A stretch of 64,000 nt of DNA from Gemmatimonas sp. (GTDB taxonomy: Bacteria; Gemmatimonadota; Gemmatimonadetes; Gemmatimonadales; Gemmatimonadaceae). This document shows, one piece after another, positions 26,512 to 42,587 of the stretch. How positions within the stretch are numbered: position 1 is the first letter of the stretch; every line of letters begins with the position of its first letter. Below the pieces are notes generated by a model. The model did not search any database. It saw nothing but the letters and a program-made list of their open reading frames with translations, and was not told where the DNA came from. The stretch lies in NCBI GenBank assembly GCA_011390885.1, contig JAABRO010000060.1, positions 1-64,000 on the forward strand. The letters are read 5' to 3'. The position numbers and the translations under genes are program-made.

Positions 26512-27515
26512 CGGACCACGCCGGCGCGGGCACCCGCTCGTCGCACACGGTGGGCGCGCGGGCCGGCGAGCGGCTCGACCTGTTCGTGGCGAATGCCTGC
26601 GCGCTCTCGCGCACGCAGGCCGCCACGCTCATTGCGGGCGCGCACGTCACGGTGAACGGTGGCGCCGAAAAGGCGGGCTATCGCACCGCCGCGCGTGACG
26701 TGGTCGAGGTGTTCATTCCGCCGCCGCCCGGGCGCGACATCGTGCCCGAGGACATCCCGCTCGCGGTCGTGTACGAAGACGACGACCTGCTGGTGGTGGA
26801 CAAACCGGCGGGCATGGTCGTGCATCCGGCGCCCGGCAACTGGAGCGGCACGCTCGTGAACGCGCTCGTGGGGCGCGGCGGGGCACTGGCCACCGGCGGC
26901 GGCGACGAGCGTCCGGGACTCGTGCACCGGCTCGACAAGGAGACATCGGGGCTGCTCGTGGTCGCGAAGACCGAGCAGGCGCATCGCACGCTGAGCGCCG
27001 CGCTCGCCGCGCGCACCATCCGGCGCGTGTACGCGGCCCTCTGCTGGGGGCACCTCCCGCAGGAGCGCGTGGGCGTGGATGCGCCACTCGCGCGCGATCC
27101 GCGTGACCGGCAGCGCATGGCAATCGTTCCGGGAGGGAAGGTTGCGCGCACCACGCTGGTGCGTGTCGCGCGCTTCGACAGCGTGGACCTCGTGCGCGCG
27201 CACCTGCACACCGGACGCACGCACCAGATTCGCGTGCACCTGGCCTCGCTCGGACATCCGGTGGTGGGCGACGACACGTACGGGGGCGGGGGCGGACGTC
27301 GCCTGGCGGCGCTGCCGCCGCGTCGTCACTTCCTGCACGCGGCGTGGCTGCGGCTGCCGCATCCGGTCACGGGCGCGCTGCTCGAGCTGCGCAGTCCGCT
27401 CCCCGACGACCTTCGCGCGTCGCTGCTCGCCGTGGCGCGGTTGCCCGACCTGCAGCATCACCCGGACCCGCTCGACGCCCTTGGATTCTTCAACGCCGAC
27501 CCCGACGATCCCTGA
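26508..27515 (+). CDS. rluD: RluA-family RNA pseudouridine synthase (RluD/YlyB-like)
   Basis: A 335-residue enzyme that isomerises uridine to pseudouridine, in the large-subunit rRNA for the RluD type. The N-terminal S4 domain is GERLDLFVANACALSRTQAATLI with VTVNG. The catalytic domain has VVYEDDDLLVVDKPAGMVVHP, the active-site loop GLVHRLDKETSGLLVVAKT (Asp), HTGRTHQIRVHLASLGHPVVGD and a FLHAAWL strand. The exact target is not certain. It is coupled to lspA by a 4-base overlap, the Bacillus lspA-ylyB arrangement. The cheW frame starts inside its last 35 bases, so the chemosensory genes may share this transcript. Confidence 0.92.
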   Translation: MTDHAGAGTRSSHTVGARAGERLDLFVANACALSRTQAATLIAGAHVTVNGGAEKAGYRTAARDVVEVFIPPPPGRDIVPEDIPLAVVYEDDDLLVVDKPAGMVVHPAPGNWSGTLVNALVGRGGALATGGGDERPGLVHRLDKETSGLLVVAKTEQAHRTLSAALAARTIRRVYAALCWGHLPQERVGVDAPLARDPRDRQRMAIVPGGKVARTTLVRVARFDSVDLVRAHLHTGRTHQIRVHLASLGHPVVGDDTYGGGGGRRLAALPPRRHFLHAAWLRLPHPVTGALLELRSPLPDDLRASLLAVARLPDLQHHPDPLDALGFFNADPDDP

Positions 27516-27996
27516 GGACGCCGACCTCGAGGACGAGCGCCCACGCGCGCTCGTCGTCGAGGTCGAGGCGCGCGCGTACGCGCTGCCGATCGCGTCGGTG
27601 CGGGGCGTCATCCGGGCCAGCCAGCTCACGCCGATCCCTGGCGCGCCGCCGTTCGTGCTGGGGTTGGTGAACGTGCGCGGTCTCGTGGTCACCGTGCTCG
27701 CGCTTGGCGCGCTGTTGCGTGACGAAGCGGGCGCGCCGCGTGACGCGATCGCGCCGCTGGCGCGTGCCGTTCCCGTCGTGTCGGTCGTCCTGCTGGAGTA
27801 TCGGGGGCGCGCCGTGGGCGTGGCCGTCGATGCGGTGCTCGGCGTGCGCCCGCTCGATGCGGGTGACGACACGCCGGCGCAGGGCGGAGCGGCACCGGAC
27901 GAGGCGGCGGTCGCGCGCGACGCGACGCCGGTCACGGTGCTCGATCCGACGGCCCTGCTCGCGCACGTGATGCTCTCTGCGGAGGACGGACGGTGA
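27481..27996 (+). CDS. cheW: CheW-like coupling protein
   Basis: A 171-residue CheW-domain adaptor, of the type that links CheA to receptors. Conserved pieces are RALVVEVEARAYALPIASVR, LTPIPGAPPFVLGLVNVRG and VPVVSVVLLEYRGRAVGVAVDAVLGV. TTG 27481 is the only sensible in-frame start before the domain and overlaps the pseudouridine synthase by 35 bases. The middle loop is long and Ala/Asp/Gly-rich. It is coupled to cheY by a GTGA overlap. No chemoreceptor gene is in the window for it to serve. Confidence 0.85.
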   Translation: MDSSTPTPTIPEDADLEDERPRALVVEVEARAYALPIASVRGVIRASQLTPIPGAPPFVLGLVNVRGLVVTVLALGALLRDEAGAPRDAIAPLARAVPVVSVVLLEYRGRAVGVAVDAVLGVRPLDAGDDTPAQGGAAPDEAAVARDATPVTVLDPTALLAHVMLSAEDGR

Positions 27997-28358
27997 GTCG
28001 GACAGTACTGATCTGCGATGATGCGATCTTCATGCGCACCATGGTCGGCGACATCCTGCAGCAGGCGGGCTTCGAGATCGTGGGCGAGGCCGAGACGGGC
28101 GTGCAGGCGGTCGAGAAGTACAAGCAGCTGCAGCCTGACCTCGTGACGATGGACATCGTGATGCCCGACATGGGCGGCATCGACGCGGTCCGGGAGATCA
28201 CGAAGTCGCATCCGGGCGCGCGCATCCTCATGTGCAGCGCGATGGGGCAGCAGGCGCTCGTGGTCGAGGCCATCCAGGCCGGCGCGAAGGACTTCGTCGT
28301 CAAGCCGTTCCAGCCCAGCCGCGTGCTGGAAGCGGTGCAGCGCGTGCTCGCGGCGTAA
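27993..28358 (+). CDS. cheY: CheY-type single-domain response regulator
   Basis: A 121-residue receiver domain without an output domain. The acidic pair is CDD (residues 8-10). The phosphoacceptor Asp is in LVTMDIVMPDMGG (Asp54). The switch residue region is ILMCSAMGQQ and the conserved Lys is in AKDFVVKPF. Phospho-CheY would carry the signal from the adjacent CheA to an output protein. No flagellar switch is present, so the target could be one of the operon's TPR, PATAN or GTPase proteins (inference). The GTG start overlaps the cheW stop. Confidence 0.93.
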   Translation: MSRTVLICDDAIFMRTMVGDILQQAGFEIVGEAETGVQAVEKYKQLQPDLVTMDIVMPDMGGIDAVREITKSHPGARILMCSAMGQQALVVEAIQAGAKDFVVKPFQPSRVLEAVQRVLAA

Positions 28359-28370
28359 GCCGCTCGGCCC

Positions 28371-30014
28371 GTGGACCTCGCCCGCTACGCGGAGCTGTTC
28401 CGCACCGAGGCACGAGAGCATCTCGCGGGCATCGACGAGTCGCTGACGCAGCTCGCCGACGGTGGGGGACGCGCAGCGATCGACGCGCTCTTCCGTCACG
28501 TGCACACGATCAAGGGCATGGCGGGCGCCATGGGCTACGGCTCGGTCGAGACGCTCGCGCACGCGTGGGAGTCGCGGCTCGGCGCGCTGCGCGACGGCGA
28601 CGGCACGACCGATGCGCGGGTGATCGCGCTCCTGTACGACGCCGCGGATGCGCTCGCACAGCACGTGGACGACGCGGTCGATGGCCGCGAGGACGCGCCG
28701 GTGGCGGCGTCGCTGCTGGCGCGGCTGGCGGCGGAGCCGGGCGAGGCCTCCGACGTCTCGGTGGAGGTGCACGAGCAGGCGCCGTCCACTGACGCCCCCG
28801 CGGGCGAGTCCGCGCCGGACGGGCGGCGTGAGGGACTGCGCGATGCGCGCGTGGAGTTGCGGCATCTCGACGCGCTGCTCGAGCTCACGGGCGAGCTCGT
28901 GATCGCGCGCGACCGCCTGCTGCAACTGCACGAGGGCACTGCCGACCGGCCGATCCGCACGGCCGTGCAGGATCTCGCGCGGCTCGTGGGCGCGCTGCAG
29001 CAGGAGGTGCTCGCCGCGCGCATGGTGCCGGTCGGGCAGGTGTTCGACCGGTTCCCGCGTCTCGTGCGCGATCTGGCGCGAACGCTCGACAAGCCCGTGG
29101 CGTTCGAGATGGCCGGCCGCGAGCTCGCGCTCGACCGCTCGATGCTCGAGGCGATCGGCGATCCGCTCGTGCACCTGCTGCGCAACGCCGTCGATCATGG
29201 CCTCGAGCCGGCCGAGGAGCGCCTCGCCGCAGGCAAGCCAGCGGCGGGTCGCGTGCGCCTGAGCGCCGCGCGCGAGCGCGACGCCATCGTGATCGCGGTC
29301 TCCGACGACGGACGCGGCATCGACCGCGCGCGCGTGCGCGACCGCGCGCTGGCTGCCGGACGCCTCGACGGCGCGTCCGGCGGGCTGTCGGCCGACGTCC
29401 TGTCGGCCGACGTCCTGTCGGACGACGCCCTGTCGGACGACGCGCTCATGGCGCTGCTGGCGCAGCCCGGCTTCTCCACCGCCGACCAGGTCACGGCCGT
29501 GTCGGGGCGTGGCGTGGGCATCGACGCGGTCGCGAGCCGCGTGCGCGCGATGGGGGGGCGGCTCGAGATGTCCACCTCGCCGGGAACGGGCACCACCTTC
29601 GCGCTGCGGCTGCCGCTCACGTTGGCGATCGTGCGGGCACTGCTCGTCGAGGTGGCCGAGCGCACCTACGCGGTGCCGGCGGCGCATGTGGTCGAAGCGG
29701 TGGAGTTCGACGACGTCGACCGGCTGGAGGAGGAGGGCACGGAACGGGTGATCGTGCGGTCGGAGGCACTGCCCGTGGTGCGCCTGCGCCGGCGCTTCGG
29801 CGAGCCGATCCGTGAGGACGCGGGCACGCAGCTGCTCGTGGTGGAGGCGGCCGGCCGCCGGGTGGCGTGCGCCGTCGACGCCGTGCTCGGCCAGCAGGAG
29901 ATCGTGGTCAAGCGCCTCGACAGCGTGCGGGGCGCGGCCGCGCTCTTCAGCGGCGCCACGATCCTCGGTGACGGCAGCCCGGCGCTCATCGTCGATGTGG
30001 GTAGCCTCGCCTGA
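28371..30014 (+). CDS. cheA: Chemotaxis-type histidine kinase CheA (short form)
   Basis: A 547-residue CheA. The P1/HPt domain carries the phospho-His in FRHVHTIKGMAG (His45). After an Ala/Glu-rich linker without an evident P2 domain come dimerisation helices (LDALLELTGELVIARDRLL). The HATPase has N box HLLRNAVDHGLE, G1 SDDGRGID and G2 SGRGVGIDAV. The C-terminal CheW-like P5 domain (ALLVEVAERTYAVPAAHVVEAV) ends the protein. An unusual insert, four tandem 5-residue units LSADV/LSDDA, lies in the ATP-lid region between G1 and G2. The GTG 28371 start is 12 bases after cheY. It should phosphorylate the CheY and CheB proteins encoded here. Confidence 0.93.
   Translation: MDLARYAELFRTEAREHLAGIDESLTQLADGGGRAAIDALFRHVHTIKGMAGAMGYGSVETLAHAWESRLGALRDGDGTTDARVIALLYDAADALAQHVDDAVDGREDAPVAASLLARLAAEPGEASDVSVEVHEQAPSTDAPAGESAPDGRREGLRDARVELRHLDALLELTGELVIARDRLLQLHEGTADRPIRTAVQDLARLVGALQQEVLAARMVPVGQVFDRFPRLVRDLARTLDKPVAFEMAGRELALDRSMLEAIGDPLVHLLRNAVDHGLEPAEERLAAGKPAAGRVRLSAARERDAIVIAVSDDGRGIDRARVRDRALAAGRLDGASGGLSADVLSADVLSDDALSDDALMALLAQPGFSTADQVTAVSGRGVGIDAVASRVRAMGGRLEMSTSPGTGTTFALRLPLTLAIVRALLVEVAERTYAVPAAHVVEAVEFDDVDRLEEEGTERVIVRSEALPVVRLRRRFGEPIREDAGTQLLVVEAAGRRVACAVDAVLGQQEIVVKRLDSVRGAAALFSGATILGDGSPALIVDVGSLA
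29385..29444 (+). repeat. Four tandem 15-bp repeats inside cheA
   Basis: The unit CTGTCGGCCGACGTC occurs twice exactly and then twice as CTGTCGGACGACGCC/G. It is in frame and encodes LSADV, LSADV, LSDDA, LSDDA. It lies between the G1 and G2 boxes of the CheA ATPase, where the ATP lid is. Copy number could change by slippage without shifting the frame. Confidence 0.92.
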
Positions 30015-30051
30015 CCGCGGCGCGGCGCGCGACTTCCCCCGGAGTGCACAC

Positions 30052-30672
30052 ATGGAGGCGATCACCTCCCTCAAGTCCATCCAGCTCGACGCACTGCGCG
30101 AGACGGCGAACATCGGGGCCGGACACGCCGCGACGGCGCTGTCCCAGATGACCGGCAGCACGATCATGATCAACGTGCCCGCGATCAACGTCGTGCGCAT
30201 GGAGGCGATCCCGTCGCAGTTCGGTGACGAGGAGGAGCCGGTCGCCGCCGTCATGATGCACATGCTCGGCGACCTGAGCGGCCGCACGCTGCTGGTGTTC
30301 CCGAAGCCCGCCGTGATGCGCCTGGCCGAGCTCATGCTGCGGCGGCCGCTCGGCTCGTCCACGGCGCTCGGCGAGCTCGAGACGTCGGCGATCAAGGAAG
30401 CCGGCAACATCCTGAGCGGCGCGTACATGAACGCCCTCTCGGACTTCCTCGGCATGCTGCTGCTGCCGTCGCCGCCGTCGCTGGTGATCGACATGTCGCG
30501 CGCCGTGCTGAGCAGCGCCTACGCGCAGTTCGCCAGCGACCCGGACTGCATTCTCTGCGTGGAGAGCGAGTTCATGCTCACCGACCGCGCGCAGTCGCTG
30601 CGCGGGTTCTTCCTGCTGCTGCCCGACCCGGCGTCGCTGCAGGTGATGCTGCGGGCCCTTCGCCTCGCCTGA
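30052..30672 (+). CDS. cheC: CheC-type CheY-phosphate phosphatase
   Basis: A 206-residue CheC/CheX/FliY-family protein that removes phosphate from CheY-P. Both pseudo-symmetric active-site motifs are present: LRETANIGAGHAATALS near the N-terminus and SAIKEAGNILSGAYMNAL near residue 120, each with the Glu and Asn pair. CheC usually works with CheD, which is encoded further down this run, as in Bacillus and Thermotoga. ATG 30052 has GGAG seven bases upstream. Confidence 0.92.
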   Translation: MEAITSLKSIQLDALRETANIGAGHAATALSQMTGSTIMINVPAINVVRMEAIPSQFGDEEEPVAAVMMHMLGDLSGRTLLVFPKPAVMRLAELMLRRPLGSSTALGELETSAIKEAGNILSGAYMNALSDFLGMLLLPSPPSLVIDMSRAVLSSAYAQFASDPDCILCVESEFMLTDRAQSLRGFFLLLPDPASLQVMLRALRLA

Positions 30673-30695: not shown

Positions 30696-33527
30696 ATGTC
30701 CATCACGCCGGAGCCCGATCGCAACGTCGCGCTGCTGCGCGCGCTCGCCGATCGCATCGACGCCACCGATCCCGGCGCGTGCAACAACCTCGGGGTGCTG
30801 TACTACTCCAAGGGGCTGCACGCCGAGGCGGTGTCGGCGTTCCTGCGCGCGCTCGCGCTCGCGCCGCGCATGCGTGTGGCCGCGCGGAATCTCGAGGTCG
30901 CGGCCTCGCACGCCGGTGCCTGCGACGCGCCGATCGCCGTGCTGCAGGCGCGACTCGATGCGAACGCCGCCGACCATGGGGCGCGACGCGAGCTCGCGCG
31001 GCTCCATCGTCTGCTGGGCAGGCCGGCGGACGCGGCCGCGCATCTCGACGCGCTGCTGCAGGCCGATCCGGACGACATGGTCGCGCTGCGCGAGCTCGGC
31101 CTGCTCGAGCAGGCCGGCGGCGACCTGCGCAAGGCGCAGCGCTGGCTCGAGCGCGCGCTGGCCGTGGCGCCGGACGACAGCTGGGCGCGCCTGCATCTCG
31201 CGGAGGTGTACTACCATCGCGGCGCCAACGAACAGGCGCTCGCCGAGCTCGACGAACTGCTGCGGCGCGACGACGGCATCGCCGATGCGCACCTGCTGCG
31301 CAGCTTCGTGCTCGGTGACATGGGGCGTCCCGAGGCGGCGCTGGAGGCGTCACGTCGCGCCAACGCGCTCGACCCGGCGCTCGCCGCGCTGCAGCCCGAT
31401 CTCTCGCTCGACCCGCGCATGGCCCCCACGGCCGGCGCGCCGGCGGGCAGCGTGCCGGCCATCCCGATCACGCGCGGGCTCATGGAAACGCCGGCGATCG
31501 CCGGCATCATCAGCAACGAGTCGCTGGCCCGCTACAGCCTCGGTCTCGCGTTCCGCCAGCGTGGCTACTTCGTCGAGGCGCGTCGCGAGTTCGAGCGCGC
31601 CGACGCGCAGGGCGAGGACCCGCTGCTCGTGCAGCACGCGCTCGCCGAGCTCGACCTGGTGCAGGGTGGGCATCGCGCGGCGCGGCAGCGCTACGAGCAG
31701 CTGCTCGCGGATCGCGGTGACGATGCGCGCCTCTGGAACGAGCACGGCGTCGCGCTGCACCAGGGGGGCGACGTCGCGGCGGCCGCCGACAGCTATCGGC
31801 GCGCGCTGCGTGTGGACCCGCGCCATGCGCTCGCGTACAACAACCTCGGCGTGGCGCTCGCCGATCTCGGCGAGGCGGTGCCGGCGCGCGAGGCGCTGCA
31901 GCGCGCCGCGCAGCTCGATCCGTCGCTGCTGCGCGCGAGGCTCAACCTCTCGCGCTGGCACCTGCGGCAGCGGGACCCGCTCATGGCGCTCACCGTGCTG
32001 CGCGACCTCGTCTCGTTCCACCCCACGCTGGCCGACGCGTGGCACGAGATGGGACTCGCGCTGCTCGCGCTCGACCGCACCGACGAGGCGCGGCAGGCGG
32101 TGACCACGGCGATCGAGCATCGACCGGACCACGCCGAGGCGCGCTACACGCTGGCGGAGGTGCTCGGCTCGCTGGGCGATCATGACGGCGCCTTGCGCGA
32201 GACGCAGCATGCGCTCGGTCTTGCGCCCGTGCGCGTCGATCCGCGCCTCACGGTGGGCATCGCGCTGCACGACGAGTGCCCCGAATCGGTGGGGCGCCTC
32301 GACCTGCTGTCGGTGGTGGAGGCAGAGCCGCTGCTCGGCGCCGAGGTGTCGGAGGCCGACATCGGGGCGCTGCTGCCGGAGCGCATCGCGACGGTGGAGC
32401 CGGACGCCTCACCCACGGACATTGCCGCGCAGCTCAACACGCGACTGCACGATGCCGATGCGGCGCTCGTGCAGGGCGAGTCCGCCCACGCGCTGCGCGA
32501 GGCGCAGGAGATCCTCACGCGGTGCACCCCGGAGCTGCGGCGCGACGCGCCCGCGCTCGAGGCCGAGGCCCTGCGGCTCGCGGGTGACGCGTGGGCGTCG
32601 CTGGGCGTGCACGGCGAGGCGCACGAGCGGTACGCGCAGGTGCGTCAGGCGATGGCGTCGGGCGAGGGCTGGACGCGTGATGAGGCGGTGCAGGTGACCG
32701 CGCGCCGCGCGCTGCTCGGCGAGGTGCGCACGGCCTGCCTGCTCGGTCGCGGCGCGGAGGTCGTGCCGCTCGTGGAACGGTTCGGCTCGCACGACACCGC
32801 CGATCCCGACGTGCTGGCGCTGCTCGCGGCCGCGCATGCCGCGCTCGGCGATGCGTACGGCGTGCGCGTGGCGAAGGAAGCGCTCGCGCGGCTCCTGCGG
32901 CTCGAGCCGCGCAGCGCAGCGCTGCTGCACTTCGCCGGCGATGCGGCGGTGCAGCTCGGTGAGGGCACGCTGGCGCTGGTGCTGTATCGGCGCGCGCTGG
33001 CGCTCGACCCGACGCGCCCCTCGCCGCGACTCGCGATCGCGCGGCTGCTGCAGGCGCGCGGCGACCTGCTGGCCGCCCACCTCGAGCTGGTGGCCGCGCT
33101 CGCGTCCGTGCCGTCGTGGCGCGAGGCGCGGCTGGCGCTCGCCGCGCTGCACCAGACGGCCGGTCGTTCGCAGGAGGCCGTGCGCGTGCTCGCGGCGCAC
33201 GTCGACCAGTCGCCCACCGACACCGACGCCCTTGCGCTGCTCGCCGAGGCGCTGCTTGCGGCTGGCCGCGATGGCGATGCCCGCCTCGCGATCCAGCGCG
33301 TGCGCCGCGTCGAGCCGGATCACCCGACGGGACTCTGGCTGGACGGTCGCCTGCTCGCCGAGCAGGGACGCGCGCGCGAGGCGCGCTCGCGCTGGGGACG
33401 ACTGATCGCGACGTCGCCCGGGTCGGCCCCCGCGTCGCGCGCGCGTGACGCCCTCGCGGCGCTCGATCGGTCGTTCGACGACGGCTCGGCATTCGCTGCC
33501 GTGTCCGAACAGCGGAGGGCGGGATGA
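30696..33527 (+). CDS. Large TPR-repeat protein (943 residues)
   Basis: A 943-residue cytoplasmic protein made mainly of tetratricopeptide repeats. Clear units include LGVLYYSKGLHAEAVSAFLRALAL near the N-terminus, YNNLGVALADLGEAVPAREALQRAAQ in the middle and LLHFAGDAAVQLGEGTLALVLYRRAL near the C-terminus. A non-repeat stretch of about 60 residues around position 250 (GAPAGSVPAIPITRGLMETP) and another near 550 split the array into blocks. No signal peptide or enzyme motif is seen. It lies between cheC and a PATAN protein and overlaps the latter by four bases, so it is probably a scaffold or output adaptor of this signalling unit (inference). Confidence 0.85.
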   Translation: MSITPEPDRNVALLRALADRIDATDPGACNNLGVLYYSKGLHAEAVSAFLRALALAPRMRVAARNLEVAASHAGACDAPIAVLQARLDANAADHGARRELARLHRLLGRPADAAAHLDALLQADPDDMVALRELGLLEQAGGDLRKAQRWLERALAVAPDDSWARLHLAEVYYHRGANEQALAELDELLRRDDGIADAHLLRSFVLGDMGRPEAALEASRRANALDPALAALQPDLSLDPRMAPTAGAPAGSVPAIPITRGLMETPAIAGIISNESLARYSLGLAFRQRGYFVEARREFERADAQGEDPLLVQHALAELDLVQGGHRAARQRYEQLLADRGDDARLWNEHGVALHQGGDVAAAADSYRRALRVDPRHALAYNNLGVALADLGEAVPAREALQRAAQLDPSLLRARLNLSRWHLRQRDPLMALTVLRDLVSFHPTLADAWHEMGLALLALDRTDEARQAVTTAIEHRPDHAEARYTLAEVLGSLGDHDGALRETQHALGLAPVRVDPRLTVGIALHDECPESVGRLDLLSVVEAEPLLGAEVSEADIGALLPERIATVEPDASPTDIAAQLNTRLHDADAALVQGESAHALREAQEILTRCTPELRRDAPALEAEALRLAGDAWASLGVHGEAHERYAQVRQAMASGEGWTRDEAVQVTARRALLGEVRTACLLGRGAEVVPLVERFGSHDTADPDVLALLAAAHAALGDAYGVRVAKEALARLLRLEPRSAALLHFAGDAAVQLGEGTLALVLYRRALALDPTRPSPRLAIARLLQARGDLLAAHLELVAALASVPSWREARLALAALHQTAGRSQEAVRVLAAHVDQSPTDTDALALLAEALLAAGRDGDARLAIQRVRRVEPDHPTGLWLDGRLLAEQGRAREARSRWGRLIATSPGSAPASRARDALAALDRSFDDGSAFAAVSEQRRAG

Positions 33528-34705
33528 GTCTCGAGGGCACGATCCGCGATCTCGGGCTGCAGGAGGTGGGGCAGCTGCTGTCGCTGAGTCGCAAGAGTGG
33601 CGTGCTCTCCGTGCGCTCCGCGCTGCGCGGCGCGCGCGCGTGGATCCGGTTCGCCGAGGGCGCGATCGTGGATGCCGGCGAAGGGGACGCGCTCGATGGC
33701 GGCGCGTGCTCCGCGCCCGCGATGGCGGGCGACCGGCCGGCCGTCGAGGAGGTAGTGCTCGACGTGCTCGCGTGGCGTGAGGGCACGTTCGCGTTCACGC
33801 CGGCCACCGCGCCGGGCGCCGGTGCGAGTCGCGTGCGCATCCCGACCGACGCGATGCTGGTGGAGTCGGCGCGCCGCGAGGATGCGTGGAGCCGCATCCG
33901 CGACCGGGTTCCGTCGGCGGCGGCGATTCCGTCCTTCGTGGACGTGGAGCCCAAGTCGCTGCCGCTGCTGCACCTCGTGCCGCAGGAGTGGGAGGTGCTC
34001 ACGCGCGTGGACGGGGATCGCGACCTGCGCACGCTGGCCGGCCTGCTGCAGCGCGATGTGGTGGAGGTGGGGGAGATCGTGCACGGGCTGGTGGGCACCG
34101 GACTGCTCACCGTGCGCGACGGGCAGACGCCGGTGCGCGCGACGGTGCCACGCGGCATCACGCCGGTGGGCGTGGGCGCGCTCGACGACCTCGATGGTGC
34201 GCCGCGGCAGCCGTTCATGTCCGAGGCCGTCTTCGATTCGGACGGGGATGACCTCTGGATTCCCGCGCCGTCGGAGCTTGCCGAGTTCGGGGCGCTCGGG
34301 GCGGACGAGGTGTTCGATCCACAGCGCGCGGGCCTGCTGTCGCACCGTGGCACGCCGCTCGCCGCGCCCCGCATCGCCGACGATGACGTCGCGCCGCGCC
34401 CGCTCGCGTCAGGCGCACCGGCCACCGTCACGGTGCCGGCCCCAGGGCCCGTTGCCTCCGGCCCCTCCGAGCCGTCATCCCACGACGGCCGGAACGAACC
34501 GGTGCCCGACCCGGCACCGGAAGCGATCGCGTTGCGCGAGGCGGGAGACGCCGCGGCGCGGCGCGGGGACTTCGAGACGGCCCTCACCTGTTGGAGCCGG
34601 TATCTGCGCGTGCAGGAGCGCGCCGCCGATGCCGACCGTGTGCGTGAGGCACTCGGACTCGCAGCGCGCCTCCAGGCGTTGCTGCATCCGGAGCCGCGCG
34701 CCTGA
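33524..34705 (+). CDS. PATAN (DUF4388) domain protein with C-terminal helical repeat
   Basis: A 393-residue protein. Residues 1 to about 100 are a DUF4388/PATAN domain (MSLEGTIRDLGLQEVGQLLS, SRKSGVLSVRSALRGARAWI, FAEGAIVDAGEGDAL). PATAN domains are found in response-regulator outputs, such as cyanobacterial phototaxis regulators, and in myxobacterial regulatory proteins. A second conserved part near 145-200 (KSLPLLHLVPQEWEVLTRVDG, LAGLLQRDVVEVGEIVHGLV) looks like the winged-helix-like module often following DUF4388. A Pro-rich linker and a TPR-like end (AIALREAGDAAARRGDFETA) finish it. A paralogous start recurs in the gene at 37542. Confidence 0.83.
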   Translation: MSLEGTIRDLGLQEVGQLLSLSRKSGVLSVRSALRGARAWIRFAEGAIVDAGEGDALDGGACSAPAMAGDRPAVEEVVLDVLAWREGTFAFTPATAPGAGASRVRIPTDAMLVESARREDAWSRIRDRVPSAAAIPSFVDVEPKSLPLLHLVPQEWEVLTRVDGDRDLRTLAGLLQRDVVEVGEIVHGLVGTGLLTVRDGQTPVRATVPRGITPVGVGALDDLDGAPRQPFMSEAVFDSDGDDLWIPAPSELAEFGALGADEVFDPQRAGLLSHRGTPLAAPRIADDDVAPRPLASGAPATVTVPAPGPVASGPSEPSSHDGRNEPVPDPAPEAIALREAGDAAARRGDFETALTCWSRYLRVQERAADADRVREALGLAARLQALLHPEPRA

Positions 34706-34777: not shown

Positions 34778-35560
34778 ATGCCCATCGTGGATCACGCAAC
34801 CCGACTGATCACCTGCAAGCTCGTCTTCTGCGGGCCCGGTCGATCGGGGAAGACGACGAACCTGTCCTACCTGCACTCCGCGCTGCCGGGTGAGCAGGTC
34901 GGTCACCTGACCTCGCTCGCCACACGCCGCGACCGCACGCTCTTCTTCGACTACATGCCCGTGGACCTCGGCACCGTCGGGGCGTACAAGGTGCGCTTCC
35001 AGCTCTATACGGTGCCCGGCCAGCCGTACTACAAGGCCATCCGCCAGCTCGTGCTGCAGGGTGCCGACGGCGTGGCCTTCGTCGCCGACAGCCAGCGCCA
35101 CCGCTGGGATGACAACATCGAGAGCCTGCAGGACATGCACGTCAACCTCGCCGAGCACGGCGTGGACGCGCGCAGCCTGCCCATGGTGCTGCAATACAAC
35201 AAGCAGGATCTCCCCGAGTCGCTGGTCGCCTCGGTGTCCGAGCTGTCGGCCTCGCTCAACTTTCGCGCGCGTCCCGAGTTCGCCGCCGACGCGCTGCGCG
35301 GGCGCGGGGTCTTCGACACGCTGCGCTCGCTCGGCGTGCAGGTGCTCCGGCGCCTCGGCGCGGAGGACGGCACCGCGGCCGGCGCGCGCGCGCAGCAGGC
35401 GCTCCGCACACCGAGCTCGGCACCGGTAACCACGCCGGAGCCGGTGGGCATCGAGTCGCGCGGTGAGGGCATCTTCCCGATGGCGGCGCACCGGAAGGTG
35501 GCCCGACCCTCTGCCGTCACGACGCCGGCGCTCGCGATGGCTGGAGGAGTCGGCGTGTGA
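34778..35560 (+). CDS. mglA: MglA-type small Ras-like GTPase with C-terminal extension
   Basis: A 260-residue GTPase closely resembling Myxococcus MglA, the polarity switch of gliding and pilus motility. G1 is FCGPGRSGKTTNLSYLHSAL. The switch region has SLATRRDRTLFFDYMPVDLG. G3 is the MglA-typical LYTVPGQPYY in place of DxxG. FVADSQ and LQYNKQDLP (G4) follow, then the MglA-type end GVFDTLRSLGVQVLRRLG. About 65 residues extend beyond the usual MglA length and are Ala/Thr-rich. GGAG precedes ATG 34778. No mglB (Roadblock GTPase-activating partner) is seen nearby. Its stop overlaps the tandem-DnaA gene start. Confidence 0.9.
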   Translation: MPIVDHATRLITCKLVFCGPGRSGKTTNLSYLHSALPGEQVGHLTSLATRRDRTLFFDYMPVDLGTVGAYKVRFQLYTVPGQPYYKAIRQLVLQGADGVAFVADSQRHRWDDNIESLQDMHVNLAEHGVDARSLPMVLQYNKQDLPESLVASVSELSASLNFRARPEFAADALRGRGVFDTLRSLGVQVLRRLGAEDGTAAGARAQQALRTPSSAPVTTPEPVGIESRGEGIFPMAAHRKVARPSAVTTPALAMAGGVGV

Positions 35561-37542
35561 CGGGACGGGTCCTCGACGGCGGGTATCGCTTCGAGAACTT
35601 CGTGGTGGGAGCCTCCAATCGCCTGGCGCACTCGGCGGCCCAGCGCGTGGCGGACGCTCCCGGCGCGGCGTACAACCCGCTCGTCATCTACGGCGGCTCC
35701 GGGCTCGGCAAGACACACCTCGCGGCGGCCATCGCGTATCACGCGCGGCAGGCGCATCCCGCGCTGCGCGTCGAACTCGCCAGCGCGGAAGACATCGTGG
35801 AGCGGCTGCATCGCGCGATCGCCTCCGGGCAGCGCGAGCAGTACGCGGCGCACTTTCAGCAGGTGGACCTGCTGCTGCTCGACGACATGCAGTTCCTCAC
35901 CGGCCAGCGCGAGACGCAGACCGAGCTGCTGCGCCTCTTCAACCTGATGCAGGGCAGCGGCCGGCAGCTCGTGATGACGAGCGATCGTCCTCCCACGGAA
36001 ATTCCCGACGTCGACCAGCGGCTCGCGTCGCGGCTCGCGGGCGGCCTCGTGGTGGATGTGGGCGCGCCCGACTTCGAAATGCGCCTGGCGATCCTGCGCA
36101 ACAGCGCCCATGAGCGCGACCTGGAGTTCGGCGAGGGCGTGCTCGACGAGGTCGCACGCCTCGCGCTCGGCAACGTGCGGGAGCTCAAGGGCGCCCTCAA
36201 CCGGCTGGCTGCGTACCAGCAGCTCGAAGGGGCGCCCATCGCGCCCGCCGATGTGCGCGCGGTGCTCGGCGAGCGCCGCATCTCCGCGGCCAGCGGCATA
36301 CCGGCCGTGCGCGAGTCCGCGCCCGCCGGCGCAGTCACGCCAACGGGCCCTGAGCGTCCCGCCGAATATGCGGGCTTCCTCGCCGATGTGACGCAGGAAG
36401 TGGAAACGCGCGTGGAGCGCTGGCGGGTGACGATCGGGGAGGCGTGCGCGTTCTGGCGTGCGGAGGGATACGACACGCGCGTGCTCGAGCGCGCCATGCA
36501 GCTGCCCGCCGCGCCCGACGTGAACGGACTGCTGGCCACCTACGCCGCCGCGATCGAACACCTGCGCGGCCTCGAGATGCAGGCGGTGACGCTCGATCCG
36601 GGGGTGCGCGGCAATCCCGCGTTCCGCAACCCGGAGCGGGTGGCCGAAGCGCAGCGGCTGCTCGATCGCGCACTGGCGTCGGCGATGCCGCTGCCCGCGC
36701 CCAATCCGGCGTTCGCGCGCAGCGGACTCGAGGTCGGGCTGGCCAACCAGCTCGCGCTCAAGGCGGCGGACGCCGTGATCGAGCACCCCGGCCAGCGCTA
36801 CAATCCGCTGTTCATCCACGGCGCGAGCGGCACCGGCAAGACGCACCTCGCGCACGCGATCGCGTCGGCGCTGCAGGCCATGTGCCCGCGCACGGCGGTG
36901 GCGTGCCTGTCGGCGGGCGCGTTCGTGGAGGAGTTCGTGGCCGCGATGCAGGAGGGCGGGGTGGAGCGCTGGCGCGCGCGCTATCGGGCCGCCGAAGTGT
37001 TCGTGCTCGACGATGTGCAGCAGCTCGCGGACAAGGAGCGCACGCAGGAGGAGCTGTTCCACCTCTTCAACGTCCTGCATGATCGGGGCGCGCAGATCGT
37101 GCTCACGAGCGACCGGTCGCCGCGCGAGGTGCGCGGCCTCGCCGACCGACTGCGGTCGCGGTTCGAGGGAGGACTCGTCGTGGCCCTGCAGGCGCCCGAC
37201 CGCGCGCTCAAGGAGCGCCTCGTGCGCCGCTGGCTGCTCGAGGCGGGGCACCGTGCCGAGGGGGCGCTGGTGTCGTATCTCGCCGATCGCGAGGCGCGGA
37301 GTGCCCGCGAACTCGGCGGCATGATCACCCGGCTCGCCGCCGCCGCCGACCTGCTTGCCGTTCCGCTCGACCTGCCGCTGGCGCGCCGTGAACTCGAAGG
37401 CACGGCGCCCGTCGCGGCGGCCACACCGCGCATCGGCGTACCGCTCGCCGACGGGTCGCACGATGCCTTCTTCCTCGACGAGGAAAAGGTGCGCTGGGAG
37501 TGGCCCGAGCTGTCCGACCGCATTCTCGAGGAGTGGCGCTGA
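35557..37542 (+). CDS. Tandem double DnaA-like AAA+ ATPase without DNA-binding domain
   Basis: A 661-residue protein with two DnaA/Hda-type AAA+ modules. Module 1 (residues 10-240) starts YRFENFVVGASNRLAHSAAQ, nearly the DnaA domain III consensus. It has Walker A YGGSGLGKTH (46-54), Walker B LLLLDD (109-110), sensor 1 VMTSDR and the arginine stretch QRLASRL. Module 2 (about 385-615) repeats these: NPLFIHGASGTGKTH (421-430), VFVLDDVQQL, VLTSDRSP and DRLRSRFEGGL. The linker (270-375) is helical, with a WRAEGYDTRVLERAM motif. DnaA domain IV (DNA-box helix-turn-helix) is absent; an acidic-aromatic tail replaces it. Both ATP sites look intact. The MglA/PATAN/Che context argues against a replication role; an ATP-dependent assembly or localisation role is inference. 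Confidence 0.88.
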   Translation: MTGRVLDGGYRFENFVVGASNRLAHSAAQRVADAPGAAYNPLVIYGGSGLGKTHLAAAIAYHARQAHPALRVELASAEDIVERLHRAIASGQREQYAAHFQQVDLLLLDDMQFLTGQRETQTELLRLFNLMQGSGRQLVMTSDRPPTEIPDVDQRLASRLAGGLVVDVGAPDFEMRLAILRNSAHERDLEFGEGVLDEVARLALGNVRELKGALNRLAAYQQLEGAPIAPADVRAVLGERRISAASGIPAVRESAPAGAVTPTGPERPAEYAGFLADVTQEVETRVERWRVTIGEACAFWRAEGYDTRVLERAMQLPAAPDVNGLLATYAAAIEHLRGLEMQAVTLDPGVRGNPAFRNPERVAEAQRLLDRALASAMPLPAPNPAFARSGLEVGLANQLALKAADAVIEHPGQRYNPLFIHGASGTGKTHLAHAIASALQAMCPRTAVACLSAGAFVEEFVAAMQEGGVERWRARYRAAEVFVLDDVQQLADKERTQEELFHLFNVLHDRGAQIVLTSDRSPREVRGLADRLRSRFEGGLVVALQAPDRALKERLVRRWLLEAGHRAEGALVSYLADREARSARELGGMITRLAAAADLLAVPLDLPLARRELEGTAPVAAATPRIGVPLADGSHDAFFLDEEKVRWEWPELSDRILEEWR

Positions 37543-39230
37543 TGGCGATTCGCGGCAGCCTGAGCGAGGCGAGCCTCGCCGATGTCCTGCAGCTCCTCGC
37601 GCTTGGCCAGAAGACGGGCGTGCTGAGCCTCGCGCGGGAGGACAGCTTCGGCGCCGTATGCTTCGATCGCGGGGCCGTGTGGCACGCGGCCATCGTGAAC
37701 CGACGCGACCGGCTCGGTGACCGGCTGGTGCGCGCGGGAGTGCTCGACGCCGACCAGCTGGCGACGACGGCGGCCCAGCTTCCGGACGACGACGACCGGC
37801 ACCTCGCGCAGGCGCTGCTCGAGGCCGGACTCGTGGAGCACGACCTGCTGGCGCGCGAGTATCGCGCGCTCGTGGAGGAGGCCGTCTGCCAGCTGTTCAC
37901 GTGGAATACGGGCACCTTCGCCTTCGAGGCGCAGCCCTCGCCCGCCGAACCGCCGGTCGTCATGCTCCCTGCGGACTCGCTGCTCATGGAGGCGGCACGG
38001 CGCGTGGACGAGTGGACGCAGATCGAAAAGAAGATCCCGTCGCTCGACCTGCTGTTCGAGCTCGACGGCGCACGGCTGCAGCAGAGCGGCATCACGCTCA
38101 CCGAGGAGCAGGCACGCATCGCGCCCTGGCTCGACGGCACGCACGACGTGGCGTCGATCATCGAGCGGTCCGGGCTCGGCGAGTTTGCGGTCGGCAAGGT
38201 GGTCTTCGGGCTGGTCACGGCGGGCTTCGCGCAGCGGGTGGGGCGCAGTGCGGCGCGCCGGCAGCCGGCACCCGAGAGTCGCGTGGCGGAGCATCGCAAC
38301 CTCGGCATCGCGTTCTATCGCACCGGCATGTTCGAGGAGGCGATCCGCGAGTTTCGCCGTGTGCTCGAACTGCGCCACGACGACATGGCCGCGCGCTTTC
38401 ACCTCGGCCTCGTGCACCTGCGCCGCCGCGCGTGGGCCGACGCCATCGAGGTGCTGCGCGAGCCGGCGCAGCAGCCCGACGCGCGGCCGGCGATGCTGCT
38501 CGCCCTCGCGCATGCGTACGAAGGCAGCGGGCAGCTCGACACCGCCGAGGCGCAGCTGGCCGAGGCCATCCGGCGCGGTGCGGGCCAGGAGCCGCGGATC
38601 GCGCTGTCGCAGGCGGTGATCGCCATGCGCCGCGGAGACCTGCCGCGCGCCGAGGAGCGGCTGGCCACGGCGCGCACCTGGTGGGGGGCGCGACTGCCGG
38701 CGGCCGTGTGGTTCCACTACGCCGGTCTGGCTGCGGCCATGCGCGGCGAACTCGACCGCGCGATCGCGCTGCTCGAGGAGGGCGTGACGGTGCATCCGCA
38801 TGTCGCCGCGCTGCACAACGACCTCGCCGTCGTGCAGGAGCGGCGCGGACTGCACGAGGCCGCGGCGCGCACGCTCGAGCACGCGCTGCTCGAGGAAAGC
38901 ACCCTGCCGCACCTGCACAAGAACATCGGCGACTACTTCTACCGCGCGCAGCGGCATGACGAGGCGGCCGAGGCCTACGAACGTGTGGTCCGGCTCGCCC
39001 CGCGACACGGCCCCGATGTGTGGCTCAAGCTCGGCAACATCCGCTATCGACGCGGTGACGCCGACGGGGCGCGCGAAGCGTGGGAGGCGGCGCTCGAGAT
39101 CGCGCCCGGCCACGTGATCGCGCGCGGCAACCTCGGCATCCTCACGGGCGCCCGTCAGGACGACGCCACCACCTTGGAGGCGAAGCCCGCCGCCGAGGGT
39201 GCGCTCGCGGTGTCCGGGGCGGCCGCGTGA
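37542..39230 (+). CDS. PATAN (DUF4388)-TPR fusion protein
   Basis: A 562-residue protein. It opens with a DUF4388/PATAN domain (MAIRGSLSEASLADVLQLLA, LGQKTGVLSLAREDSFGAVC, FDRGAVWHAAIVNRRDRLGD), and the module continues to about residue 240 (WNTGTFAFEAQ, IAPWLDGTHDVASIIERSG). A run of TPR units fills the rest (NLGIAFYRTGMFEEAIREFR, GDYFYRAQRHDEAAEAYERV, LGNIRYRRGDADGAREAWEA). It shares its N-terminal architecture with the gene at 33524, so the two are diverged paralogues. It overlaps the tandem-DnaA gene by one base and cheR by four. The role is unknown; a CheY-responsive scaffold is one possibility. Confidence 0.85.
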   Translation: MAIRGSLSEASLADVLQLLALGQKTGVLSLAREDSFGAVCFDRGAVWHAAIVNRRDRLGDRLVRAGVLDADQLATTAAQLPDDDDRHLAQALLEAGLVEHDLLAREYRALVEEAVCQLFTWNTGTFAFEAQPSPAEPPVVMLPADSLLMEAARRVDEWTQIEKKIPSLDLLFELDGARLQQSGITLTEEQARIAPWLDGTHDVASIIERSGLGEFAVGKVVFGLVTAGFAQRVGRSAARRQPAPESRVAEHRNLGIAFYRTGMFEEAIREFRRVLELRHDDMAARFHLGLVHLRRRAWADAIEVLREPAQQPDARPAMLLALAHAYEGSGQLDTAEAQLAEAIRRGAGQEPRIALSQAVIAMRRGDLPRAEERLATARTWWGARLPAAVWFHYAGLAAAMRGELDRAIALLEEGVTVHPHVAALHNDLAVVQERRGLHEAAARTLEHALLEESTLPHLHKNIGDYFYRAQRHDEAAEAYERVVRLAPRHGPDVWLKLGNIRYRRGDADGAREAWEAALEIAPGHVIARGNLGILTGARQDDATTLEAKPAAEGALAVSGAAA

Positions 39231-40048
39231 TCGAGGCCGCGTCGCGCGATGGGGATCTGCGCGTCGAAGACGGGCTGGGTCGGCTGCTCGACAAGCTCGC
39301 GCGCGATGGTGACGTGTGCTGCGCGGGTTACAAGCCATCGTGCCTGCGACGGCGCATCGGCGTGCGGGTGCGGGCCACGGGGGCCGGCGACTTCGGGCGT
39401 TACGCACACGTGCTCGACGCCCACCCGGCGGAATGGACGGCGCTTCGCGATACGCTCACCGTGAATGTCACCGGATTCTTTCGGGATGCGGCGGTCTTCG
39501 CGCAGCTGCGCGAGCAGGTGCTGCCGGCGCTGGCGCGACAGGTCGAGGGCCCCGTGCGCGCCTGGAGCGCCGGCTGCGCGAGTGGCGAGGAACCGTGGGC
39601 GCTCGCGATGCTGCTGGCCGAGTGCGCCGGCGTGGAGCGAACGGCAGTGCTCGCCACCGATGTCGATGAGCGCTCGCTCGCCCGCGCGCGCGCTGCGGTG
39701 TACGCGGCGCACGCCGTGTCGCCGGTGCCGGCGTCGCTGCGCGCCCGGTGGTTCGCGGGCGTCGACCCGGTGCACGTCGTGCCGGCGCTGCGCGGTCTCG
39801 TGACCGTGCAGCGGCACGATCTGCTGCGCGATGCGGTGCCTGCAACCGGCCTGCACCTCGTCACCTGTCGCTACGTGGTCATCTATTTCACGCGCCAGGC
39901 GCAGGAGGCGCTCTACGCGCGCTTCGCCGACGCGCTCGCGCCCGGCGGTGTGCTCGTGCTCGGCAAGTCGGAGCTGCTCACCGGTCCGGCGCGGCGCAGC
40001 TTCGTGCCGATCGACGCACGCGAGCGCATCTACCGCCGCGTCGCGTGA
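39227..40048 (+). CDS. cheR: CheR receptor methyltransferase
   Basis: A 273-residue S-adenosylmethionine-dependent methyltransferase that esterifies glutamates on chemoreceptors. An N-terminal helical CheR_N domain (KPSCLRRRIGVRVRATG) precedes TLTVNVTGFFRDAAVF. SAM motif I is WSAGCASGEEPWALAML. The acidic loop is LATDVDERSLARARAAVY and the late motif is LVTCRYVVIYF, where most CheR have CRNVLIYF. Its presence implies receptors with methylation sites elsewhere in the genome. GTG 39227 overlaps the preceding stop. Confidence 0.93.
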   Translation: MIEAASRDGDLRVEDGLGRLLDKLARDGDVCCAGYKPSCLRRRIGVRVRATGAGDFGRYAHVLDAHPAEWTALRDTLTVNVTGFFRDAAVFAQLREQVLPALARQVEGPVRAWSAGCASGEEPWALAMLLAECAGVERTAVLATDVDERSLARARAAVYAAHAVSPVPASLRARWFAGVDPVHVVPALRGLVTVQRHDLLRDAVPATGLHLVTCRYVVIYFTRQAQEALYARFADALAPGGVLVLGKSELLTGPARRSFVPIDARERIYRRVA

Positions 40049-40524
40049 CGGACATTCAGGTGTCCATTTCCGACTACGCCGTCGCGCGCGCCGGCACGCG
40101 CCTCGTGACGGTGGGGCTCGGGTCCTGTGTGGCGATCGCGCTGCACGCGCCGGCCCATCGGGCCGGTGGGCTCGCGCACATCATGCTGCCGCACGCGGCC
40201 CTGTCGAACGATCGGTCGAGTCCGGGCAAGTTCGCCGGCACGGCGGTGCCGCACATGGTCGAACAGCTGCGCGCGCTCGGCGTGACGGGGCGCCTCGAAG
40301 CGCGGCTCGTGGGGGGCGCGTCCATGTTCGAGCAGCTGCTGCCGCCGGGCGGCGTGCCGCTGGGATCGCGCAACGTGGTGGCGGCGCGCGCGGCGTGTGC
40401 CGATGCGGGCATCGCGGTCGTGGCCGAGGACACCGGTGGTGGACATGGGCGCAGCGTGTACTTCGACGTGGAGGCCGGATGCGTGCTCGTGCGCTCCGTG
40501 CTGCACGGTGATCGCACGCTCTGA
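40045..40524 (+). CDS. cheD: CheD chemoreceptor deamidase
   Basis: A 159-residue CheD, which deamidates glutamines on receptors and in CheC-containing organisms also binds and stimulates CheC. The catalytic Cys is in VTVGLGSCVAIALH. The His is in GGLAHIMLPHA. LEARLVGGASMF and GSRNVVAARAACADAGI follow, and the end carries EDTGGGHGRSVYFDVEAG. It starts at GTG 40045, overlapping the cheR stop. Co-occurrence with cheC in this run supports a Bacillus-like adaptation module. Confidence 0.92.
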   Translation: MTDIQVSISDYAVARAGTRLVTVGLGSCVAIALHAPAHRAGGLAHIMLPHAALSNDRSSPGKFAGTAVPHMVEQLRALGVTGRLEARLVGGASMFEQLLPPGGVPLGSRNVVAARAACADAGIAVVAEDTGGGHGRSVYFDVEAGCVLVRSVLHGDRTL

Positions 40525-40534
40525 GCCGGCGCGC

Positions 40535-41689
40535 GTGCGCCGCGTGCTCGTGGTGGATGACAGCGCCTTCATGCGCCGACTGGTGCGTGACCTCGTCATG
40601 GCGAGCGGTGAGTTCGAGGTGGTCGGCACCGCGCGCGACGGCGACGATGCGATCCGCCAGGTGCATGCGCTCGATCCGGACATCGTCACGCTGGACATCG
40701 ACATGCCCGGCCTCGACGGCCTCGAGGTGCTCGGCTACATCATGAGCGAGGCGCCGCGACCGGTGATCATGCTCAGTGCCGGCGGGGAGGATCGCGGTGC
40801 GCGAGCCACGCTGCGCGCGCTCGAACTCGGTGCTGTGGATTTCGTGCGCAAGCCGTCGGGGCCGATCAGTCTCGATCTCGCGTCCGTGGGTGACCAGCTG
40901 CTCGACGCGCTGCGCGCGGCGAGCGTGATGCAGGTCCATCGCGTGCAGGTGTTGGCGCGTCGGCCGGTCGCGCCCGGCATGATCTCGGCACACGGCGAGG
41001 CGTCACGGGCGACCAGCCCCACGCCGGCTTCCGCGTGCGCCACCCCGGACATCGCGGCCACGCGCGTCGTCGTGGTGGCCGCGTCCACCGGGGGGCCGGC
41101 CGCCCTCAGCCAGCTGCTGCCCGCGCTCCCCGCACCGCTCGGGGCGGCCGTGCTCGTCGTGCAGCACATGCCCGAAGGGTTCACGGCCAGTCTCGCCCAG
41201 CGGTTGGACGGCAGCTGCGCGTTGCGCGTGCGCGAGGCGAGCGACGGGGACCTCGTCCTGACCGACACCGTGTACATCGCGCCCGGCGGCCAGCATCTGC
41301 GGATCATGGCCACCGTGGACGGACCTCGCATCGCCCTCGATCGCAGCCCGTCGCTGTGGGGCGTGCGGCCGGCCGCCGATCCGCTGTTCGCATCGGCGGC
41401 CGAGGCGTTCGGGGCGGCGGTGGTGGGCGTCGTACTCACCGGCATGGGGCGCGACGGCGCGGAGGGGCTGCGCCGCGTGCGCGGCGCGGGTGGCATGGCG
41501 CTCGTGCAGGACCCGGCCGAGGCCGTGATCCCGGGCATGCCGGAGTCGGCGCTGCGTCTGGCGGGGGCGGATGGTATCGTGTCCCTCGCCACCGCGCCGG
41601 CCGCCGTGGAGGCCGCCGTGCGCCGCCTCGCGTCGGGGGCGACGCCGCTCGTCGCGGTCGCCGAGCCGGTTCCTTCGCTGACCCCCTGA
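40535..41689 (+). CDS. cheB: CheB receptor methylesterase/response regulator
   Basis: A 384-residue two-domain protein reversing CheR methylation. The receiver domain begins RRVLVVDDSAFMRRLVRDLV, with phospho-Asp54 in VTLDIDMPGLDGLEVL and Lys in VDFVRKPSG. After a linker the esterase domain has the catalytic Ser in VVAASTGGPAALSQLLPAL, His in VVQHMPEGFT and Asp in GMGRDGAEGLR. GTG 40535 is preferred because it gives the family N-terminus; GTG 40508 would overlap cheD by 17 bases. CheA is the expected phosphate donor. Confidence 0.93.
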   Translation: MRRVLVVDDSAFMRRLVRDLVMASGEFEVVGTARDGDDAIRQVHALDPDIVTLDIDMPGLDGLEVLGYIMSEAPRPVIMLSAGGEDRGARATLRALELGAVDFVRKPSGPISLDLASVGDQLLDALRAASVMQVHRVQVLARRPVAPGMISAHGEASRATSPTPASACATPDIAATRVVVVAASTGGPAALSQLLPALPAPLGAAVLVVQHMPEGFTASLAQRLDGSCALRVREASDGDLVLTDTVYIAPGGQHLRIMATVDGPRIALDRSPSLWGVRPAADPLFASAAEAFGAAVVGVVLTGMGRDGAEGLRRVRGAGGMALVQDPAEAVIPGMPESALRLAGADGIVSLATAPAAVEAAVRRLASGATPLVAVAEPVPSLTP

Positions 41690-41699
41690 GGCGTTCCCC

Positions 41700-42587
41700 G
41701 TGACCTCCCCAACTCCGGTGTCCGATGTGACGGTCGAGGCGCCCGACCTCGCGGCGCTCGCCGCGACCGAACGCGATCTGCGCGCGCGACTCGCCGTGAC
41801 CCGCGATCCGGCCGACCGGGCGCGCCTCAAGGACGAGATCGTGGCGCTGTTTCGCGCCGTCGAAAGCGCGGAGCGCGAGGTCGCGTCGCTCAAGGACGCG
41901 GTGAAGGCGCTGGCCAGCCAGTGGCGCACCGGGGACGCCGCGCCGTCCGGCGGCATGGCGCGGGCCGGCCAGAGCGCGCGCGTGGACCACCTCGGCGCCT
42001 CCACGTTCGTGGAGAAGGGGTGGTCGCGCATCGCGCTGGGGGACGGGGCGGCGGCGGAGCAGGCGCTGCTCAAGGCGCTCGCGCTCGCCCCCGGCGACAG
42101 CGAGGCGGAAGCCATGCTCGGCTGGGCGCTGCTGCTGCAGGGGCGCGACGACGAGGCCCTGCTCCGCTTTCACCACGTGCTGCTGCGTGATCCCCAGCAC
42201 GCCCTCGCGCGGGCGCACGTGGGGTTCATCTGCCTGCGGCGCAAGAGCTACGGCGAAGCGATCGAGCACTTGTCGCGCGCCATCCGCGTGGACAATGATG
42301 CGAAGGCCAGCCTGTACGCGCACCTCTATCTCGGGCTGGTGTATTTCGACCGGGAGATGTTCGACGACGCGAAGCTGTTCTTCCGGAAGGCGCTCGCGCT
42401 CGGTCCGAACCTGCTCCAGGCGTGGTACGAGCTCGGGCGGGCGCACTGGTTCGCGCACGAGCGGGAGGCGGCGCGCACCGCGTGGCGCGAGGGCGCCGCG
42501 GCGAACACGTTCAATCCATGGGGCAAGCGGTGCGCGGAGCAGCTGGCAGCCGTCGATCGGGGGGAAGGGCCACCGCGCGAGGTGTGA
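41700..42587 (+). CDS. Coiled-coil/TPR protein
   Basis: A 295-residue cytoplasmic protein. The first 85 residues are helical and charged (RDLRARLAVTRDPADRARLK, VESAEREVASLKDAVKALAS), like a coiled coil. Then come about four TPR units: FVEKGWSRIALGDGAAAEQA, AMLGWALLLQGRDDEALLRF, AHVGFICLRRKSYGEAIEHL and AHLYLGLVYFDREMFDDAKL. No signal peptide. GTG 41700 follows cheB by ten bases and its stop overlaps the next start. It is the third TPR protein in the chemosensory run. Function unknown. Confidence 0.82.
   Translation: MTSPTPVSDVTVEAPDLAALAATERDLRARLAVTRDPADRARLKDEIVALFRAVESAEREVASLKDAVKALASQWRTGDAAPSGGMARAGQSARVDHLGASTFVEKGWSRIALGDGAAAEQALLKALALAPGDSEAEAMLGWALLLQGRDDEALLRFHHVLLRDPQHALARAHVGFICLRRKSYGEAIEHLSRAIRVDNDAKASLYAHLYLGLVYFDREMFDDAKLFFRKALALGPNLLQAWYELGRAHWFAHEREAARTAWREGAAANTFNPWGKRCAEQLAAVDRGEGPPREV

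Follow-up and report, generated by a model that had tools for sequence, protein, structure and literature searches.

We analysed a 64,000-nucleotide stretch of Gemmatimonas sp. DNA (the window), in which a gene encoding a double DnaA-type AAA+ protein, here called DnaA2, lies between the gene of an MglA-type small GTPase and that of a PATAN (DUF4388)-TPR protein (Table 1). The DnaA2 gene starts with a GTG codon at 35557, with a GGAGGAG ribosome-binding site 7 nt upstream, and ends with TGA at 37540-37542. The end of the MglA gene overlaps the DnaA2 start by 4 nt (GTGA), and the DnaA2 stop codon is overlapped by the ATG of the PATAN-TPR gene (tgATG). These start/stop overlaps indicate translational coupling of the three genes.

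Table 1 Features of the DnaA2 locus in the window.
Feature	Position	Strand	Evidence
CheW; true start probably within ORF	27079..27996	+	profile search
CheY-type response regulator	27993..28358	+	Pfam
CheA histidine kinase	28371..30014	+	Pfam
CheC/CheX-type phosphatase; true start probably within ORF	29812..30672	+	Pfam
Large TPR protein, 943 aa	30696..33527	+	profile matches
Second PATAN (DUF4388) protein	33524..34705	+	profile matches
MglA-type small GTPase	34778..35560	+	profile matches
Double DnaA-type AAA+ protein (DnaA2), 661 aa	35557..37542	+	ORF call, Pfam and NCBIfam profile matches
AAA+ module 1, residues ~6-237	35572..36267	+	TIGR00362 261.9 bits; alignment
Walker A of module 1, GGSGLGKT, residues 46-53	35692..35715	+	sequence, alignment
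Helical linker, residues ~268-376	36358..36684	+	alignment, profile searches, model
AAA+ module 2, residues ~383-615	36703..37401	+	TIGR00362 224.9 bits; alignment
Walker A of module 2, GASGTGKT, residues 422-429	36820..36843	+	sequence, alignment
Conserved C-terminal tail (DAFFLDEEKVRWEWPELSDRILEEWR), ~26 residues	37462..37539	+	alignment, model
PATAN (DUF4388)-TPR protein	37542..39230	+	profile matches
MshEN-like helical insert (c-di-GMP-binding type) within the PATAN domain; window copy degenerate	37701..37877	+	profile score
CheR methyltransferase; true start probably within ORF	39080..40048	+	Pfam
CheD; domain lies in the C-terminal half of the ORF	39748..40524	+	profile search
CheB; true start probably within ORF	40397..41689	+	profile search

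Domain content of DnaA2

The Pfam family Bac_DnaA was matched twice in DnaA2 (345.7 bits summed, E 5e-104). Scored separately against the NCBIfam DnaA model TIGR00362, module 1 reached 261.9 bits and module 2 reached 224.9 bits. The Hda profile gave 92.3 and 89.5 bits, respectively, less than half of its curated cut-off of 194.8, and with the IstB, DnaC and DnaI profiles both modules scored lower still, far below the curated cut-offs. DnaA domain III is also the best PDB match of the protein, both by sequence and by fold, the model aligning to DnaA structures with Z 27-30 across module 2. The identity to domain III of the organism's own DnaA is 42% for module 1 and 39% for module 2, and 22-24% to E. 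coli Hda. In the window protein both modules carry Walker A, Walker B (DD), sensor 1, the box-VII arginine finger and the sensor-2 Arg. DnaA2 belongs to the same AAA+ clade as DnaA domain III, sharing with it the initiator-specific helices, the arginine finger of box VII and sensor 2.

In contrast to DnaA, the modules of DnaA2 stand in tandem, without domain I and without the DNA-box domain IV, and the gene is part of a chemosensory/GTPase operon. Each module aligns to positions ~104-335 only of the 437 of the DnaA model, the linker and the C-terminal segment have no NCBIfam match, and domain IV is not among the best 25 of the 36 Pfam families matching the whole protein. Domain I is absent because module 1 begins at about residue 6, which leaves no room for it. 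The true DnaA is encoded separately in the same genome, as a 495-aa open frame on another contig. Together with the two DnaA2 modules it makes up the three Bac_DnaA matches of the genome, among which no separate Hda was found. Hda and HdaA are likewise DnaA-like AAA+ proteins without domain IV, but Hda has a single module and a different operon, and the DnaA2 modules score below the Hda cut-off. The helicase-loader group of IstB, DnaC and DnaI shares the initiator-type AAA+ character, although the profile scores place both modules well outside it.

The helical linker between the modules has no significant Pfam match, and comparison of its model with the PDB gave no fold match better than E 4.8, which does not prove a new fold. 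Its first helix (FLADVTQEVETRVE) is recognisable even in the remnants of about 70 aa described below. In the AlphaFold model of DnaA2 the modules are mostly confident and the pTM is 0.45, so that the orientation of the modules, or a filament-like stacking, is not fixed by the whole-protein model. The tail is disordered, with low pLDDT, which fits a docking peptide.

These data bear out most of a sequence-only reading of the locus, which had proposed two DnaA-type modules without a DNA-box domain, an unfamiliar linker, and signalling rather than replication genes as surroundings. The module bounds given there, 10-240 and 385-615, are corrected to about 6-237 and 383-615, and the conserved C-terminal peptide of ~26 residues had been overlooked.

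Asymmetry of the modules and origin of the family

Residue conservation was counted over 44 relatives in E. coli DnaA numbering, and for the DNA-contact set also in B. subtilis numbering. In module 1, K178, D235 and D236 are kept in 44/44 relatives, from several families, while V211 is replaced by H in 30/44 and R245 by E in 37/44. Module 2 presents R285 and R245 in 43/44 relatives and I/V at position 211 in 42/44, K178 in 38 (lost in 6) and the sensor-2 R334 in 21/44. Its lid is missing in Gemmatimonas-like relatives and its P-loop is dead in family f5. These patterns suggest that module 1 contributes an ATP site that is indispensable, and module 2 an arginine finger with a DnaA-like surface; ATP hydrolysis by DnaA2 is predicted from the motifs. 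The earlier statement that both nucleotide sites look intact holds, therefore, for the window protein and not for the family, since the P-loop or lid of module 2 was lost in several lineages. Of the proposed built-in ATPase pair, the two modules stand, but they are unequal, and the residues that each has kept suggest separate tasks.

In B. subtilis DnaA, N187, I190, I193, R202 and E228 are initiator-motif residues that capture the ssDNA of the DnaA-trio, and alanine at any of them is severely deleterious (PMC10721633). Unlike in DnaA, the initiator-motif residues are lost in module 1 of DnaA2, where I190 is mostly H and N187 mostly E, and are partly kept in module 2, where R202, E223 and E228 are nearly always conserved, K222 and I/V190 mostly, and N187 is E/D in most copies. 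With residues lost in both modules, a normal DnaA-trio pocket is present in neither.

In a tree without Hda, the two modules together split from true DnaA (support 100/96), module 1 and the single-module forms make up one clade (100/99), and module 2 another. The phylogeny of module 1 versus module 2, suggested as a check by the sequence-only reading, thus gives two clades that together stand apart from true DnaA, and this pattern corresponds to one recruitment followed by one internal duplication. Module 2 appeared split in a tree rooted on Hda, probably through long-branch attraction, and became one clade once Hda was removed. Since the single-module forms adjoin the f5 module 1 in the Hda-rooted tree, module 2 was probably lost in family f9.

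At least 106 of 200 Gemmatimonadota genomes gave a match better than any that a plain DnaA gives; the genome and locus counts given here include related strains and overstate the number of independent observations. The nearest relatives of the window are Gemmatimonas/Gemmatimonadaceae MAGs at 82-83%. Outside Gemmatimonadota, contigs were scanned with peptide patterns drawn from DnaA2 alone, at close range only. One contig titled Candidatus Kuenenia stuttgartiensis (CALQGY020000027.1) carries a Gemmatimonadaceae-like cluster at 65% identity, which probably reflects contamination or mis-binning of the MAG. Among plasmid records there were 62 matches to DnaA2, of which 0/62 span 80% of the query; among the matches listed, all are annotated as DnaA or unannotated. 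In the open-access literature we found nothing on DnaA with MglA and Gemmatimonadota, nor on tandem DnaA-like AAA+ proteins.

Neighbouring genes, reduction series and MshEN-type insert

The usual gene order in relatives is CheW-CheY-CheA-CheC-TPR-PATAN-MglA-[DnaA2]-PATAN/TPR-CheR-CheD-CheB-TPR-Peptidase_MA. The DnaA2 gene, or its remnant, stands directly before the PATAN-TPR gene in 37/37 related loci. MglA directly precedes it in 28 of the 36 loci that show this end, but not in six f5 loci or in L081/L082. The adjacent MglA, to which the sequence-only reading had drawn attention, is present in the window, but only PATAN-TPR, on the downstream side, is a neighbour at every locus. In the six f5 loci the DnaA2 gene is retained with neither MglA nor a che cluster beside it; in one of them (L042) it comes, by translated sequence, after ileS, lspA and rluD, the same genes that stand before the che cluster in the window. 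Absence of the CheA marker PF02895 was not taken as proof, as this marker misses one genome (G013) whose locus contains CheA by tblastn.

No MglB (roadblock) gene lies next to the window MglA, which follows the upstream PATAN gene too closely to leave space for one, and the window cluster lacks roadblock-type genes. A roadblock domain protein is found beside MglA in the relative L050, and on C22 of the window genome (51777-52694) a roadblock gene adjoins a second MglA. The window MglA has 260 aa, against 199-202 aa in L050, L077, L078 and L079. A Peptidase_MA-like gene (window 42422-43738) scores below the Pfam cut-off in the window and above it in L042; such a gene is close to PATAN-TPR at most of the related loci, among them f5 loci that have no che genes next to them.

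DnaA2 itself is found in several reduced forms. One AAA+ module with linker and tail is present in L036-L039 and, in divergent form, in L077, linker and tail without AAA+ in L078, and remnants of 65-75 aa comprising the first helix of the linker and the tail in L079-L082. The remnant of L079 (L079:4427-4648) is a 73-aa protein between MglA and PATAN-TPR that consists of linker helix and tail only. The tail consensus, EKVVWxWPDxxxRLIEELR-like, is recognisable in all loci except L055, where a 1002-aa ORF (L055:1609-4614) at first resembled an AAA+/PATAN-TPR fusion; its middle is out of frame and joined to Peptidase_MA, and it was discarded as a chimaera produced by deletion or by assembly. In the phylogeny of PATAN-TPR the remnant loci form one clade and L077/L078 another, so that there were two or more losses of the AAA+ part.

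The PATAN domain of the downstream neighbour contains a helical insert related to the MshEN motif, for which we used the profile NF053729 (MshE-related c-di-GMP motif, curated cut-off 38 bits). Of four inserts scored singly, three, all from relatives, are above the cut-off (56.4, 55.1 and 39.2 bits), and that of the window, at 23.1 bits, is below it. At E 0.001 the motif was matched by 19/22 PATAN inserts. The insert may bind c-di-GMP. The insert is missing from the four remnant loci (L079-L082), and in ten genomes of a wider set, where the match to PATAN-TPR begins past the insert, only a DnaA-level match is seen. A link between the loss of the ATPase modules and that of the insert is suggestive only; as the four remnant loci are a single clade, the joint loss was possibly one event.

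Possible role of DnaA2

DnaA domain III is a replication machine, the oligomers of which open DNA. We propose, tentatively and at slightly less than an even chance, that DnaA2 is instead an ATP-switched adaptor, docked on the PATAN-TPR protein within an MglA/chemosensory system that controls polarity or pili. Such a signalling adaptor would consist of two diverged copies of domain III without a replication role of its own, and its linker helix and C-terminal tail would dock onto the co-translated PATAN-TPR protein. Module 1 would act as the switch, binding and probably hydrolysing ATP, and module 2 would pack on it in the head-to-tail manner of DnaA, providing a contact surface and an arginine finger that may act between the modules. 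The ATP state would then set the conformation or the oligomerisation of the PATAN-TPR/MglA assembly, which, together with the chemosensory genes and probably c-di-GMP via the PATAN insert, may direct polarity or type IV pilus activity. In favour of the adaptor are the DnaA-clade modules beside a separate dnaA, the asymmetric conservation, the overlapping start and stop codons, the fixed place before PATAN-TPR, the reduced forms that retain linker helix and tail, and the MshEN-type insert; these are observed, whereas docking, switching and output are inferred from them.

The polarity or pilus output is our best guess, by analogy, because in other bacteria pilus motors are under the control of MglA with TPR proteins, and of PATAN proteins. 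In Myxococcus, MglA and the TPR protein SgmX drive polar PilB localisation and pilus formation (PMC11580455, PMC7519303). The locus has in common with the Myxococcus MglA-MglB/SgmX system an MglA-family GTPase, TPR proteins and chemosensory genes, and in L050 the adjacent roadblock protein. In contrast, the network described there uses SgmX, FrzS and SopA (PMC11580455), and the window has a DnaA-type AAA+ gene between MglA and PATAN-TPR. In Synechocystis, PATAN proteins bind the pilus motor PilB1 (work cited in PMC9090330), and regulators such as PixE place the PATAN domain in a taxis and pilus setting (PMC9090330). Unlike these, the PATAN domain of the window is joined to TPR, has an MshEN-type insert and follows an AAA+ gene. 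As the f5 loci keep the DnaA2 gene without adjacent MglA or che genes, the output need not depend on MglA.

The retention in module 2 of part of the DnaA DNA-contact surface, which is not obviously needed for pure protein binding, speaks against the adaptor, as does the score of the window's own PATAN insert, which falls short of the c-di-GMP motif cut-off. Such a surface would be expected of a regulator coupled to replication or to the nucleoid, in which DnaA2 contacts DnaA, or DNA through module 2, and connects chemosensory/polarity signalling with the chromosome. Hda contacts DnaA domain III to domain III, and the lack of a separate Hda among the Bac_DnaA matches of this genome agrees with such a regulator, as does the conservation of I/V190, R202, K222, E223, E228 and the arginine finger of module 2 in most relatives. 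However, position 187 is acidic in nearly all module 2 copies, the surface of module 1 is lost, domain IV is missing, the Hda scores are low, and the gene lies in a signalling operon, where the AAA+ modules could be lost while helix and tail were kept; we consider this regulator unlikely. The same reduction, in which two or more lineages have shed the AAA+ part and others show a decaying module 2 while helix and tail stay, could be taken to mean that the ATPase modules are evolutionary baggage on a structural scaffold in which linker helix and tail alone matter. The catalytic residues of module 1, invariant across all relatives, contradict this and indicate selection on ATP binding, and the chance that DnaA2 is such a scaffold appears small.

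DnaC, IstB and DnaA, AAA+ proteins of the initiator clade, work on partners that are rings or filaments, and DnaA2 may be a loader of this type, its module pair capping or remodelling a ring-shaped motor such as PilB after recruitment by PATAN-TPR. MglA/TPR and PATAN proteins act on PilB elsewhere (PMC11580455, PMC9090330), and the operon encodes both types. The PilB contact is, however, proposed by analogy, and remnants survive that lack AAA+ sequence altogether. PilT-family pilus motors occur in 35/36 genomes, including that of the window, and are equally common with and without the DnaA2 gene; being near-universal, their co-occurrence with DnaA2 does not discriminate. We regard such a loader as unlikely. 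Improbable, and more doubtful than the adaptor, is a reading in which a replication-initiator AAA+, once duplicated, came to serve a polarity or pilus machine as its ATP-driven switch or loader, while chemosensory signals and c-di-GMP reach it through PATAN(MshEN)-TPR.

The DnaA2 family has kept and doubled the ATPase of an initiator, dropped the DNA-reading domain, and travels with chemosensory and GTPase genes. Thanks to the natural reduction series and the features split between the modules, the part that each piece plays is open to direct testing, in particular which ATP site is served by which arginine finger and what partner the tail binds. If the adaptor reading is true, initiator AAA+ chemistry can serve signalling, and DnaA-type assembly mechanics would operate outside DNA replication.
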